From positions 1 through 11,259 of the forward strand of contig DAOVMD010000058.1 in the NCBI GenBank assembly GCA_030630935.1: a stretch of DNA of 11,259 nt. Reading direction: 5' to 3'. Positions 1,324 to 11,259 of this stretch are shown one piece after another (positions within the stretch are counted from its first letter, which is position 1; the number at the start of each line of letters is the position of its first letter). The notes beneath the pieces were generated by a model. It had not been told where the DNA came from, did no database searches, and saw nothing but the letters and a program-made list of their open reading frames with translations. The DNA is from Candidatus Mcinerneyibacteriota bacterium. GTDB lineage: Bacteria > AUK180 > JAQVHJ01. Position numbers and translations under genes: made by a program.

Positions 1324-1764
1324 TCACCAATCTCTTTTTCCTTTAATGAATTCTTTCTTACCTTTTTTTGCAATGCGTTTAAGGTTCTTAATATTAGCAT
1401 CGCCATGGACTTCCTTTAGGAATGCGAACTTTTTACATTCCGGGAATTTCTCACATTCCCAGCACCCATCATATCCTTTTTTCTGAACACATTTTCGAAT
1501 TGCGCACCATGGATTACCACCGCCGCCTGTACATGCTTTCTTACATCTGAATTTTACCATTGCACCAAGGACTTTATAACAAGCTTCATAGTCTTTTAGT
1601 TCTTTAAAAAATTTAGAAGTTGCATTTGCAAATTTATCATATTTATATTCTCTCAGTTTCTTTCTTAAATCCCGGGCAAGATCAGGGATCTCCTGGTTAT
1701 ACCCATGGCAATCACCACAATACAATCCGCAATAAGCGATTAACTTTTCTTTATTCTCTTTCAT
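1324..1764 (-). CDS. DUF3795 cysteine-rich protein
   Basis: This 146-residue soluble protein belongs to the DUF3795 family, whose function is unknown. The sequence shows the family pattern: an N-terminal YCGLYCGDC (C12, C16, C19), then FRCKKAC with C74 and C78, C87, IRKC at 92, and a GCWECEKFPEC block (C101, C104, C110). There are 11 cysteines in all. They probably bind zinc or an iron-sulfur centre, which is inference. The end, GKRDW, matches the usual C-terminus of the family, so the gene looks complete. There is no signal peptide or membrane segment. The ATG lies one base after the stop codon of the cyclase gene, so translation is probably coupled to it. The only candidate ribosome-binding site is a weak GAAGAAG within the cyclase end. 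It is the last gene of the operon. Confidence 0.85.
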   Translation of the reverse strand: MKENKEKLIAYCGLYCGDCHGYNQEIPDLARDLRKKLREYKYDKFANATSKFFKELKDYEACYKVLGAMVKFRCKKACTGGGGNPWCAIRKCVQKKGYDGCWECEKFPECKKFAFLKEVHGDANIKNLKRIAKKGKKEFIKGKRDW

Positions 1765-1765
1765 T

Positions 1766-4700
1766 TTACAGCATCTTCTTCATTTTACTCAACCTGATTT
1801 TGAATAAGTAATATGGTTTTTTAGTATTGAAATCATTCATTAATTGATAAACCTTCCTTCCGGTTATCCTGTCCTGTGTTAACTCCCATAATAAGTATAA
1901 TGCGTCACATTGATTAAAGAAATCTATCTTTCTTTTCAGAATCTTATTTAACAATTTTATTCCGCGGGTTTTATCATCAAAACTAATTAACTTCGCTTTT
2001 AAAATCGCTGCTTTCTTCAATAAGTCTTTCTTCAAATATTTTCTTGTATCAGTTTCAAGTTTATTCAGCATTTCACTTACATTATCAGTAATTCGATTTT
2101 CTAATAGAATCTCTATCTTAAGTGCTAAAGAATAAATGAAAATATAAAACATTGTCATGTCTTTGCTCAGATCCAAAGCCTTATCAATATTTGTTATTGC
2201 CCTCTTAATTCTTCCTCTACGATATTCCAGTTCACCTAAGTAAGCAAAATAAAATGCATTATCGATTTTGTTCTCAGAATCCAATCGTTTTTCAAGTTGT
2301 TTTATATATTTCTCAGCTTTCTTGAACTCTCCCAACTTAAGATATACTTCAACAATATTCTGTTGAACCGGCAGCGCCTTCTCAATTTCACTTTTGGTTG
2401 AATAGAATTTTAATTGTTTCAACAAAATATCCTCAGCTTTCAAGTATTTTTTTAGTTCCATATAAACTGTTGCAATGTTTCCCCAAACCGTGGCGATATT
2501 ATCAGTAAAACCTAACTCTTTATACATTTCAATTGATTTATTATAGTTTTCTAAAGCTTTCTCTGTGTCACCTTTTTCTGTGTAATAATTCCCTAAACTT
2601 AAATAGACTCGGGCTTCACCAAATCTATCTCCTAACTTCTGCGATACTTTTAAATGTTTCTTCAAACATTTCATTGCATTTTGGTAATCGGAAAGATTCA
2701 TATATATAATACCCAAATTCCCTAAATTTATAGCCATACCGTATTTATCTTTGTACTTGAATTGTATTTGATATTCCTTTTTAAAAAATTTCAATGCTTC
2801 TTTAAAATAGCCTTCCATACCGTAAAGAATTCCTAAAAGACCATAACCAAACGCATTGATTTTGTCTTCATTAAGCTTTTTACCGATTTTCAGTAATTTC
2901 TCAATATATTCCTTCGCTTTATTAAAATCAAAAATATTGCGGTAATAAATTGATATGTTCCCATATATATTTGATAATAATCTTTCATTCTTCTCCTTAA
3001 GTATATATTTCTCTGCTAATCTTAGTAAACGAATTGCCTCTTTACCTTTTCCTGAGTAAATTAATAATCTTGAATGCATTGAATAACTTCTTGCTAATGT
3101 AGTTTTATCATTTATTGATTTCGCGATTTTTTGTAATTTCTTTATAGCATCAATAAACCTCTTCCAATCACAAACCATCTGAAGAATTAGGGCTAAATCG
3201 AGATAACATTCCAGGAGCTGTTTCTTATCTTTTAAATAAGTAATTAATTGATTATATAGTTTTATTACTTTACGATTTTGATAATTATCTTTTGCATAAT
3301 GAATCGCTTTTAATAGATATTCTTTTGTCTTTTCAATATCCCCGGCATTCTCAAAGTGATATGCCAATTCCTCGTAATGAGTCTTTAGATTTCTTGAGTA
3401 GGCCTTTTCAATAGCTTTCCCTGCCAATGCATGTAATCTTCGAACTGTCTTTTTCAATTGCATCTCATAAACCGAGTCCCTGATCAATGCGTGTGAAAAT
3501 ATATATTTCATCTCAGAAATGCTGTTCCAAATGGCTTCGTCTTCTACTTTCTTTACATAATCAAGAGTATTTGGATTTCGTAGTAATGCTTTAATAATTT
3601 TAATCGAAAAGATCTGACCGAGGATGGAAGCTGTTTTTACTGTCTCTTTTAATTCTGTCTCTAATCGGTCAATTCTTGCAACAATAACCTCATTAATCTC
3701 TCTTGGGATTTTAGTGATCTCCTGTTCTAACTTATCTCTACTGATAATCTCTGTAGGAATTCCTGATTCTTTTAGAAATAAAATCATCTGCTCAATATAG
3801 AAAGGGTTTCCCTGGCTCTTCTCTAATATATGCTGAATAACACCCTTCGAAACCTTATCCCCGAGCAGGTCTTCAACAAAATTCTTGACGGAGTTTTCCG
3901 ATAAGTGTTTTAAATTGAAACTTACAATCTTTACATTCTCAATAGGTAATCGGATAAGAGAGCCGTCATCATTCAATCTAGATGTTATTATAAGTATAAC
4001 CGGAATATTCTCGATATTAATTACTAAATTCTTTAAGATATTTATTGTATCAGTATCCATCCAATGTCCATCCTCAATCTCTAAAATCACTGGCTTAATT
4101 CCGGCATGAGCTCGAATGAAATCTTTAAATGTAAAAATGGTATTATCGTATTTACCTTTAGCATCTAACTTCTCATAGAATGAATCTTTCCAGAAAATAT
4201 TTCCCAGACTGGCAATGACTGATTTTGAATGCTGCAATTTTTTCTTGAGATTCTTATCTTTGATTTCATTAATGAAATCCTTGAATAGCCTGTTAAAGTT
4301 TTCCTTATTAATTTTTTCAGCTGCATCAATTGAGATATCAAAATATTTCATGATAAAATATTTAACCGGATTAAACCCGCTCTTAATAATCTCCGCACAC
4401 TTTAAATGGAACCAGAAAACGTCATCTGTATTAATAGAATTTCGTAGTTCGGATACTAATGTACTCTTCCCTATACCAGCAGGTCCGTCAATATAAATAA
4501 GCCCTTCAAATTTCTTCTTCTTTAACAAGCGGGAAACGATTCTTCTTAAACCTTTTAGTTCTATTTCTCTCCCGAAAAATCTAACATGTGAAGAATCTCT
4601 TTCAAGTAATCTTCTTTTACAAAATTCATAAATTTGGATAATCTTTCGAAACCCTTTTAACTTTATCTTTTTTAAGAGCTGGCTTTCATATTTTTTCTCA

Positions 4701-5815
4701 ATTAGTTTTGATATCTTCTCATCATAACAAATCTTATTCCAATTGCTTTCCATTGTAATGCGTGCAGCCAGGTTAACTTTTTCTCCCATCACAGTATATT
4801 CTGCAGCAGAACTACCTCCTATGATCCCGGCATAAACCACTCCGTAAGATAACCCGAATCTGATATTAAGTTTTGTTTGATAGTTCTTTAAAATCTGATT
4901 TGAGAATTCAACTGCCCGCGTAATTGGTTTTTCAATACCCATGGGAGCCCCGAATAAAATCAGGATTATTGCACCCTTTTCACCAAAATCGACCTTATTA
5001 AAATATCCGCCATATTGATGGGATTGATCAACGACTTCTTTTATAAATTTCCCAATCTCGATTCGAGTTTTTTTTCTCTTTTTAAATGATATAAACATTG
5101 GAACAACATTTCGGAACTCACCATGTGTTTTCATTTCAGAAATCTTAGCTGGAATAAATTTGCTTTGAATATTGGGATCAACGTTATAGTGTGATACAGA
5201 TAATTCATCCAATTTAAAATCAACAAAAGTTTTTAATTTGTAAAATCCACGCTTAATAAATTTTCCAGAAAATAATTTACCCAATTTCATTTTTAGAGAA
5301 TGGTGAATAATAATTTCTCCGGGTTGACTAATTTTCTGAGCGATGGCGGAATATTCAATTGCATCACCTAAGAAATAATATGTATGATAAGGTTGAGTCT
5401 TCAAAATTCTCCAGGAGACATCTCCAAAAGCCAAACCTATCCTAACATTTAATCTGAAATTTCCAAACTTCGTTTTTGCAGTATAAGTTTTCAATAATCT
5501 TTTGATTTCAATTGCACATTGAATTGAATTTAAATAATCTTGATTCTTGAATATTGCAGTAAATGCATCACCTTCAAAATTAGCGAGGATTCCTTTGAAT
5601 TGACTTACTAAATTGGTGCTTGGCTCGAAAATCTCATTTATGATATCCGATAAAATCTCAGCTCCTTCCTTCCCATGTTTCATTAAACCCTGGGTTAAAG
5701 GAGTAAAGCCCACAATATCAACGAATAAGGATACTGCTTTAAACTTACCGGATAAGCGATTTGATTTAAATTGTTCTGATATAAATGAGGGAATTAAGTT
5801 CTTAACTTTACTCAT
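1766..5815 (-). CDS. Soluble adenylyl cyclase-like protein: two class III cyclase domains, AAA-type ATPase, TPR repeats
   Basis: This 1349-residue cytoplasmic protein has the domain order of mammalian soluble adenylyl cyclase. C1 (about 25-200) carries metal-binding D33 (FVDIVGFT) and D83 (FEGDAF). C2 (about 237-398) has F-I-S-F where a metal Asp would be, but keeps K280, T341, N348 and R352 (EYTVMGEKVNLAAR). The site is therefore split, and Lys/Thr predict ATP and cAMP. The ATPase starts at FGREIEL (414-420), with Walker A GPAGIGKST (444-452) and Walker B ending EDGHWMD (581-587). Tandem TPR-like helices fill about 830-1240. There are no membrane segments. At the positions that bind bicarbonate in the human enzyme (K95, R176, from memory) it appears to have N79 and A157. 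The start has no Shine-Dalgarno and is preceded by a palindrome. It lies 44 bases after the NHL gene and one base before DUF3795. An inactive signalling ATPase is the alternative. Confidence 0.9.
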   Translation of the reverse strand: MSKVKNLIPSFISEQFKSNRLSGKFKAVSLFVDIVGFTPLTQGLMKHGKEGAEILSDIINEIFEPSTNLVSQFKGILANFEGDAFTAIFKNQDYLNSIQCAIEIKRLLKTYTAKTKFGNFRLNVRIGLAFGDVSWRILKTQPYHTYYFLGDAIEYSAIAQKISQPGEIIIHHSLKMKLGKLFSGKFIKRGFYKLKTFVDFKLDELSVSHYNVDPNIQSKFIPAKISEMKTHGEFRNVVPMFISFKKRKKTRIEIGKFIKEVVDQSHQYGGYFNKVDFGEKGAIILILFGAPMGIEKPITRAVEFSNQILKNYQTKLNIRFGLSYGVVYAGIIGGSSAAEYTVMGEKVNLAARITMESNWNKICYDEKISKLIEKKYESQLLKKIKLKGFRKIIQIYEFCKRRLLERDSSHVRFFGREIELKGLRRIVSRLLKKKKFEGLIYIDGPAGIGKSTLVSELRNSINTDDVFWFHLKCAEIIKSGFNPVKYFIMKYFDISIDAAEKINKENFNRLFKDFINEIKDKNLKKKLQHSKSVIASLGNIFWKDSFYEKLDAKGKYDNTIFTFKDFIRAHAGIKPVILEIEDGHWMDTDTINILKNLVINIENIPVILIITSRLNDDGSLIRLPIENVKIVSFNLKHLSENSVKNFVEDLLGDKVSKGVIQHILEKSQGNPFYIEQMILFLKESGIPTEIISRDKLEQEITKIPREINEVIVARIDRLETELKETVKTASILGQIFSIKIIKALLRNPNTLDYVKKVEDEAIWNSISEMKYIFSHALIRDSVYEMQLKKTVRRLHALAGKAIEKAYSRNLKTHYEELAYHFENAGDIEKTKEYLLKAIHYAKDNYQNRKVIKLYNQLITYLKDKKQLLECYLDLALILQMVCDWKRFIDAIKKLQKIAKSINDKTTLARSYSMHSRLLIYSGKGKEAIRLLRLAEKYILKEKNERLLSNIYGNISIYYRNIFDFNKAKEYIEKLLKIGKKLNEDKINAFGYGLLGILYGMEGYFKEALKFFKKEYQIQFKYKDKYGMAINLGNLGIIYMNLSDYQNAMKCLKKHLKVSQKLGDRFGEARVYLSLGNYYTEKGDTEKALENYNKSIEMYKELGFTDNIATVWGNIATVYMELKKYLKAEDILLKQLKFYSTKSEIEKALPVQQNIVEVYLKLGEFKKAEKYIKQLEKRLDSENKIDNAFYFAYLGELEYRRGRIKRAITNIDKALDLSKDMTMFYIFIYSLALKIEILLENRITDNVSEMLNKLETDTRKYLKKDLLKKAAILKAKLISFDDKTRGIKLLNKILKRKIDFFNQCDALYLLWELTQDRITGRKVYQLMNDFNTKKPYYLFKIRLSKMKKML

Positions 5816-9855: not shown

Positions 9856-11259
9856 ATGAAAAAGAAAATTTTCATTCTTGCAGCAATTTTTATTTCTATG
9901 CTAATCTTAGCCAACCCGGTTTTTGCCCGAAACCCAAACCCAAAACCTAAACCCATTGAAGAAGCGCGAACCGGTCCCTATTTTCTGGTTGAAGGTGATA
10001 AGGATGTTGAAGGGTTCCCTCTACTTGAAACTAAGGTGAAAGTAAATATTGCCGGTGTGATTGCAGAGATTGAATTGACTCAGGTTTATAAGAATGATGG
10101 TAAGAAGACAATTGAAGCAGTTTATATCTTTCCATTAGGGACCAAGTCAGCAATTCATGCAATGCAGATGAAGATAGGCACTCGGGTAATTGATGCAGAG
10201 ATCAAGGAGAAGGGCGAAGCCCGGCAGATCTATGAAGATGCTAAGGAAGACGGGAAGGTTGCTTCATTGTTAGAGCAGCATAGACCGAATGTTTTTCAGA
10301 TGAATGTGGCAAATATTATGCCCGGTGATATTGTTCAGGTCACAGTTAGATATACTGAGAACCTGGTTCCTGAAGATGGAGTTTATAACTTTGCATTCCC
10401 AACCGTTGTCGGACCAAGGTTTACCGGTGAGGTAGATAAAAAAGATCTTAAAGGTAAGGATAAATGGATGTCTTCTCCTTTTACGACAGAAGGGAAGTTA
10501 CCGTCTTATGATTTTGACATTAAAGTAAACCTTAACACGGGCTTACCACTCGGAGAAGTTTCGGTTAATACACATAAAGTTGATATTATTAAAAACGGTC
10601 CGGCTTCTGCAATGATCAATCTTTCTAAGGACGATAAGAAAAGAGGGAATAAAGATTTCATTCTCAAATACAGTCTTAAAGGAAGGAAAATTCAATCAGG
10701 ATTGTTAATGTATCCGGGAAAGGATGAGAATTATTTTCTTCTAATGGTTGAACCACCGAAGCAAGTTGATTTAAAAATGGTTCCACCGAGGGAATATGTC
10801 TTTATCGTTGATGTTTCCGGGTCAATGAACGGTTTCCCATTGAATGTTTCAAAGAAATTAATAAAGGATATTCTTAATGGACTGAGGAAGGAAGATTATT
10901 TCAATATAATTTTCTTTGCCGGTGGTTCAAAAACACTATCTGATAAACCGCTCCAGGCAACAAAAAGCAATATCAAAAAAGCAATAGATATGTTAAATGC
11001 TCAGCGCGGCGGGGGTGGAACAAGGATAAATGCTGCGCTTAAGAAGGCAATTGCTTTAAAGAAAAAGAAAGGTATGTCAAGGATCATTGTAATTGCGACT
11101 GACGGATATATCGGGGTTGAGAAGAAGACTTTTGATTTGATCCGTGATAATATGGGTGAAGCCAATGTGTTTACATTTGGAATCGGAAGCAGTATGAATC
11201 GGTATTTATTGGAAGGTATGGCAAGAGTTGGAAAGGGAGAACCTTTTGTAGTTACGAAT
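9856..11259 (+). CDS. Exported VIT and von Willebrand A domain protein, 3' end cut by the window
   Basis: The reading frame is open for 468 codons to the window edge. Residues 1-24 are a signal peptide (KKK, hydrophobic run, VFA cleavage site), followed by a proline-lysine stretch (NPNPKPKP). A VIT domain spans about 55-170, with its typical blocks VYIFPLG, EIKEKGEARQIYEDAK, LLEQHRPNVFQMNVANIMPGD and VRYTE. A VWA domain starts near 310 with an intact metal-binding MIDAS: DVSGSM (D319, S321, S323), T389 in GGGGTRI and D416 in ATDG. It should bind a divalent metal and a protein ligand outside the cytoplasm. Family relatives include inter-alpha-trypsin inhibitor heavy-chain-like and sortase-target proteins. 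Whether this one ends in an anchor, TM helix or sorting signal cannot be seen. The start is set by GGAGG at 9844-9848. Confidence 0.88.
   Translation, partial: MKKKIFILAAIFISMLILANPVFARNPNPKPKPIEEARTGPYFLVEGDKDVEGFPLLETKVKVNIAGVIAEIELTQVYKNDGKKTIEAVYIFPLGTKSAIHAMQMKIGTRVIDAEIKEKGEARQIYEDAKEDGKVASLLEQHRPNVFQMNVANIMPGDIVQVTVRYTENLVPEDGVYNFAFPTVVGPRFTGEVDKKDLKGKDKWMSSPFTTEGKLPSYDFDIKVNLNTGLPLGEVSVNTHKVDIIKNGPASAMINLSKDDKKRGNKDFILKYSLKGRKIQSGLLMYPGKDENYFLLMVEPPKQVDLKMVPPREYVFIVDVSGSMNGFPLNVSKKLIKDILNGLRKEDYFNIIFFAGGSKTLSDKPLQATKSNIKKAIDMLNAQRGGGGTRINAALKKAIALKKKKGMSRIIVIATDGYIGVEKKTFDLIRDNMGEANVFTFGIGSSMNRYLLEGMARVGKGEPFVVTN

Follow-up and report, generated by a model that had tools for sequence, protein, structure and literature searches.

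The window, that is, the whole 11,259-nucleotide stretch of DNA analysed here, holds on its minus strand a single open frame (1766–5815) that encodes a 1,349-residue protein of the soluble adenylyl cyclase (sAC) type, recognized from the frame itself, Pfam and a sequence match to the protein data bank (PDB), with the layout C1–C2–STAND-like ATPase–TPR. It is followed by a DUF3795 gene (1324–1764, minus strand), and since the ATG of this gene lies one base past the cyclase stop codon, the two are probably co-transcribed. Further along the same strand (451–1014) lies the gene of a 187-residue protein that has no Pfam match and that, judged by eye, resembles a degenerate response-regulator receiver with an AraC-like C-terminal helix-turn-helix. 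At the other end of the window (9856–11259, plus strand) lies the gene of a VIT and VWA protein, which runs past the contig end; it resembles the marine sortase target family, with a score of 337 bits that falls short of the 552-bit cut-off. For the neighbours of the cyclase gene, Pfam and NCBIfam scans gave metabolic or structural assignments or none. No DUF3795, REC-like or NHL genes were found beside the other sAC-layout genes, many of whose flanks are short, and these flanks show no conserved neighbourhood.

Domain architecture and predicted fold

Pfam places in the protein two class III cyclase stretches, then an AAA_16 domain (5.3e-14) and then TPRs to the C terminus, in agreement with the original prediction of a sAC layout with ATPase and TPR parts in the mammalian order. 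C1 (about residues 22–197; 5225–5752, minus strand; alignments and model) and C2 (about residues 232–401; 4613–5122, minus strand; Pfam, alignments and model) are tandem class III domains making up one C1/C2 core, as expected of a sAC-type enzyme. Among PDB sequences, human sAC is the best phmmer match of residues 1–410, with both domains covered (E value of 1.6e-23), and a profile built from nine paralogues again selects human sAC (E value of 2.1e-52, 182 bits), followed by CyaB (104 bits). The match to sAC is far beyond chance.

The AF2 model of the C1–C2 region, computed from nine aligned paralogues, has a pLDDT of 87.5 and a pTM of 0.87. The best 24 entries of a Foldseek search with this model are all human sAC. 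In the structural comparison with human sAC proposed along with the original prediction, VIA-align finds agreement in overall fold (Z-score of 41.2, 2.4 Å over 391 residues; 37.0 over 356 residues for AC9), and the residue pairings rest on sequence alignments. Because the predictor may have had sAC in its training set, the model is supporting evidence rather than independent proof. The membrane enzyme AC9 shares the pseudo-heterodimeric C1/C2 core but has its own membrane domains and G-protein control, lacks STAND and TPR parts and is only 17% identical. Similarly, CyaB (3R5G) and CyaC (1WC0) share the class III fold and the C2-type T/N/R motif but have a single catalytic domain in each chain of their PDB entries, other regulatory domains and reach lower profile scores.

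The AAA_16 ATPase domain (residues 412–608; 3992–4582, minus strand) is STAND-like as judged from Pfam, motifs and Foldseek. Its Walker A motif, GPAGIGKS (residues 444–451; 4463–4486, minus strand), has G444, G449, K450 and S451 invariant in nine paralogues. The model of the ATPase region is of moderate confidence (pLDDT of 73) and its Foldseek matches are STAND proteins, ORC and other AAA+ folds, so that the STAND label rests on Pfam, on motifs and on matches shared with ORC and AAA+ proteins. A P-loop/STAND ATPase placed C-terminal to the cyclases is a further sAC-type feature of the protein, its human counterpart being drawn solely from the STAND domain predicted in human sACfl (PMC12802110). 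As in the STAND ATPases MalT, Apaf-1 and PH0952 (6MFV), the AAA/P-loop ATPase is followed by helical repeats; unlike in these proteins, the effector is a fused cyclase pair. The TPR and C-terminal sensor-like region (about residues 863–1,282; 1970–3229, minus strand) is the fastest-diverging part among paralogues.

The C1/C2 active site

Residue equivalences to human sAC were taken from phmmer and profile sequence alignments, ungapped around the key positions, and conservation was counted in a family set of 149 non-identical two-domain bacterial proteins that includes the 1,349-residue protein. The roles of the human residues in binding metals, bicarbonate, adenine and the α-phosphate follow Table 1 of PMC12867704.

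In C1, D33 (codon 5717–5719, minus strand as all codons below) aligns without gaps with the metal ligand D47 of human sAC and D83 (5567–5569) with D99, both positions being aspartate in 149 of 149 proteins, so that C1 does carry both metal aspartates, as had been claimed. C2 was correctly said to lack the first of them, its place being taken by S243; the second is also absent (G278), which had been overlooked. In C2, K274 (4994–4996) aligns with the adenine-binding K334 (lysine in 72/149), N348 (4772–4774) with N412 (asparagine in 145/149) and R352 (4760–4762) with R416, the α-phosphate ligand (arginine in 147/149). T341 (4793–4795), a threonine or serine in 138 of the 149 proteins, matches human T405, which we take to be an adenine contact. 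The protein thus has both sAC-type hallmarks of the catalytic centre, namely two metal aspartates in C1 with none in C2, and the lysine and threonine adenine contacts of C2 together with its asparagine and arginine. The C2 set had been given as K280, T341, N348 and R352, of which the last three stand. K280 is not the adenine lysine, since the paired segments gyfnKvdfgeKg and gqinKvfmfdKg match K274 to human K334 and K280 (4976–4978; lysine in 122/149) to human K340 in the C2 β2/3 loop (GEKG versus FDKG). The hairpin of C2 exceeds that of C1 by four residues in the protein and in 144 of the 149 relatives, as it does in the human enzyme when read off the phmmer alignment.

Sequence, model and family comparison agree with a split active site that takes its metals from C1 and is predicted to use probably ATP, as first proposed. 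The likeness to human ADCY10 (sAC; PDB 4CLF/4CLK) extends from the C1–C2 tandem core and its single split site to the D/D pair of C1, the K/T/N/R set of C2, the longer C2 hairpin loop and the downstream P-loop/STAND region. The two proteins are, however, only 24–25% identical and differ in N79 and A157 for K95 and R176, in R125, which pairs with human K144, and in GEKG for FDKG; regulation by bicarbonate and calcium is a feature of the human enzyme.

The full catalytic set is retained in 71 of the 149 relatives, and not all of them need be ATP cyclases, because some have lost the equivalents of K274 or T341. Glutamine and glycine stand at the adenine lysine and threonine places of L054, L055, L076, L081, L101 (Chloroflexota), L041 and L044, for which another nucleotide is possible. 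Could the 1,349-residue protein itself make no cAMP, being inactive or producing another cyclic nucleotide? The relatives with other residues for the adenine pair, Q/G for example, and a weak similarity to Pycsar cyclase models speak for this, but the protein keeps the complete human sAC catalytic set and the Pycsar matches, at 1e-11, are those expected from any class III domain, making a cyclase without cAMP output very unlikely. A Pycsar identity as such is not supported as far as this similarity, a weak class III one, and the Pfam and NCBIfam assignments of the neighbouring genes go. The residues of the protein are consistent with ATP specificity and cyclase activity, both of which it is predicted to have.

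The bicarbonate positions

Descriptions of sAC commonly present it as a bicarbonate sensor of ancient origin, common to bacteria and man. In mammalian sAC the pseudo-symmetric second site is used for bicarbonate, with Lys95 and Arg176 as ligands (PMC12867704). Neither ligand is present here: as the original prediction had stated, N79 (5579–5581) replaces K95 and A157 (5345–5347) replaces R176, in ungapped stretches of both the phmmer and the profile alignments. By the secondary structure of the model, the D83 loop is preceded by a strand that carries N79, and the helix that follows G150 contains A157. The K95-equivalent position is variable across the family set, with lysine or arginine in 16/149, and the R176-equivalent position is basic in 0/149: no arginine or lysine was found there among the 149 bacterial two-domain relatives, which have alanine, valine, serine and similar residues. 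In column entropy (372 columns) the two positions rank 281 and 174, respectively, the metal aspartates ranking 0 and 3.

A one-residue alignment slip was rejected as a rescue for R176, since S156 and I158 are not basic and none of the 149 proteins is basic at position 157. Four relatives combine a lysine or arginine at the K95 place with a nearby basic residue, which sits one position further on. As a substitute ligand, K161, one helix turn past A157, came into consideration; its column is mixed (lysine in 53/149). Judged from these alignments, the missing K95/R176 pair is the rule in the bacterial two-domain family and no peculiarity of the 1,349-residue protein. Scanning named genomes turned up relatives in WOR-3, Cloacimonadota, Delongbacteria, Fermentibacteria, Marinimicrobia, Chloroflexota, Spirochaetes and others, and genome searches added more; the sampling was seeded from this bacterial family, so that bacterial proteins closer to animal sAC may be missing.

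Outside the mammals, many animal sACs are likewise without K95, R176 or both, and those that have been assayed respond to pH (PMC12867704). Given these enzymes and the family-wide absence of the R176 ligand, N79 and A157 cause little surprise. They raise the alternative of a pH-gated cyclase like the sACs of sea urchin and salmon (PMC12867704): alkaline pH activates those non-mammalian sACs in which the residue at K95 or R176 is neutral (PMC12867704), and salmon sAC has at K95 an asparagine, the same residue as N79. The sea urchin and salmon enzymes resemble our protein in having a sAC core in which a bicarbonate position is taken by a neutral residue, but have lost one residue of the pair whereas it has lost both (PMC12867704). 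Moreover, the lysine proposed to sense pH in sea urchin sAC is an asparagine here, no pointer to pH is seen in the sequence, and the array of paralogues suggests varied inputs, so that pH gating is quite improbable.

The loss of the pair is thus neither unique nor proof of insensitivity to bicarbonate, since animal sACs vary and bacterial enzymes regulated by bicarbonate had already been noted to have this layout (Kobayashi 2004, as cited in PMC3085406 and PMC11006738). It may not exclude sensitivity to inorganic carbon, because an adenylyl cyclase of Chloroflexus is reported to be activated by bicarbonate (Kobayashi 2004, as cited in PMC11006738) and the Chloroflexota relatives with sAC layout have no R176 arginine. 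A response to bicarbonate or CO2 through a site outside the K95/R176 pocket would also fit CyaB1 and Slr1991 of cyanobacteria, which are reported to respond to inorganic carbon (as cited in PMC4390856), and the C2 hairpin, whose K–G loop and four-residue excess over C1 are kept as in human sAC. However, replacing K95 and R176 by neutral residues strongly lowers the activity of human sAC and its response to bicarbonate, the sea urchin enzyme, in which R176 alone is replaced, is unresponsive (PMC12867704), and the Chloroflexus enzyme of 2004 may lie outside the set of 149 relatives. On balance, such a response is unlikely.

Paralogues and proposed mechanism

The source genome, an 80%-complete assembly, has about ten sAC-layout genes, and all seven genomes of the same class that were searched have between 3 and 21 matches, split and single-cyclase matches included. 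In a FastTree tree, copies from the source genome are mixed in with those of other phyla; the paralogy is therefore old, and a recent local duplication was rejected. The 1,349-residue protein pairs in this tree with a sister-genus gene (support of 0.97), the two proteins being 45–46% identical in C1 and C2. Paralogue identity falls from 36–40% in C1, C2 and the ATPase to 25% in the TPR region and 22% at the C terminus. One paralogue (L014, 93–2378) ends at 762 residues within its ATPase, close to a contig end, and has a lysine at the R416 place and a serine at the K334 place; it may be truncated, decayed or affected by assembly.

Six proteins of the source genome have a cNMP-binding domain. 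Elsewhere in this genome (L020, 4837–9272), a distinct 1,247-residue frame with a cyclase domain is directly followed by a 237-residue cNMP-binding-domain protein, a possible pair of cyclase and cAMP receptor.

What the analysis shows is the order of the domains, the identity of the residues, their conservation in the family and the predicted fold; that the enzyme is active, is specific for ATP, yields cAMP and is controlled by its ATPase/TPR part is inferred. The best explanation, with a probability of about 0.7, is that the protein is a sAC-type adenylyl cyclase of class III located in the cytosol. C1 and C2 of one chain would pair to form a single catalytic site, to which C1 would contribute D33 and D83 for the metals, and C2 K274 and T341 for adenine together with N348 and R352. 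The second, pseudo-symmetric site has neither a metal pair nor bicarbonate residues and would be empty. The STAND-like ATPase and TPR region would sense a ligand or partner and switch the cyclase, and the cAMP made would act on cNMP-binding proteins. That the signal is other than bicarbonate and acts through the ATPase/TPR part, as the original prediction proposed, is reasonable and fits the divergence of paralogues in the TPR and C-terminal regions, a gradient that is only suggestive because fast divergence is common in TPR regions in any case. Overall, the observations behind that prediction hold except for K280, and its interpretation is partly supported.

As far as can be told from its sequence, the 1,349-residue protein appears to be a well-formed and largely expected representative of the sAC-type cyclases, and the evolutionary point is modest. 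It is conceivable, if somewhat against the odds, that ancestral bacterial C1–C2–STAND–TPR cyclases never had the R176 ligand, that the mammalian pocket is a late animal invention and that the bacterial enzymes form a large array of sensors that make cAMP, with inputs set by their divergent TPR regions. A catalytic set that is kept while the R176 ligand is absent in 149 bacterial proteins of this layout would shift pocket-based bicarbonate sensing to animals and suggest that the ATPase/TPR region is the older of the inputs, and it marks out a class of bacteria whose genomes have as many as about twenty such matches each.
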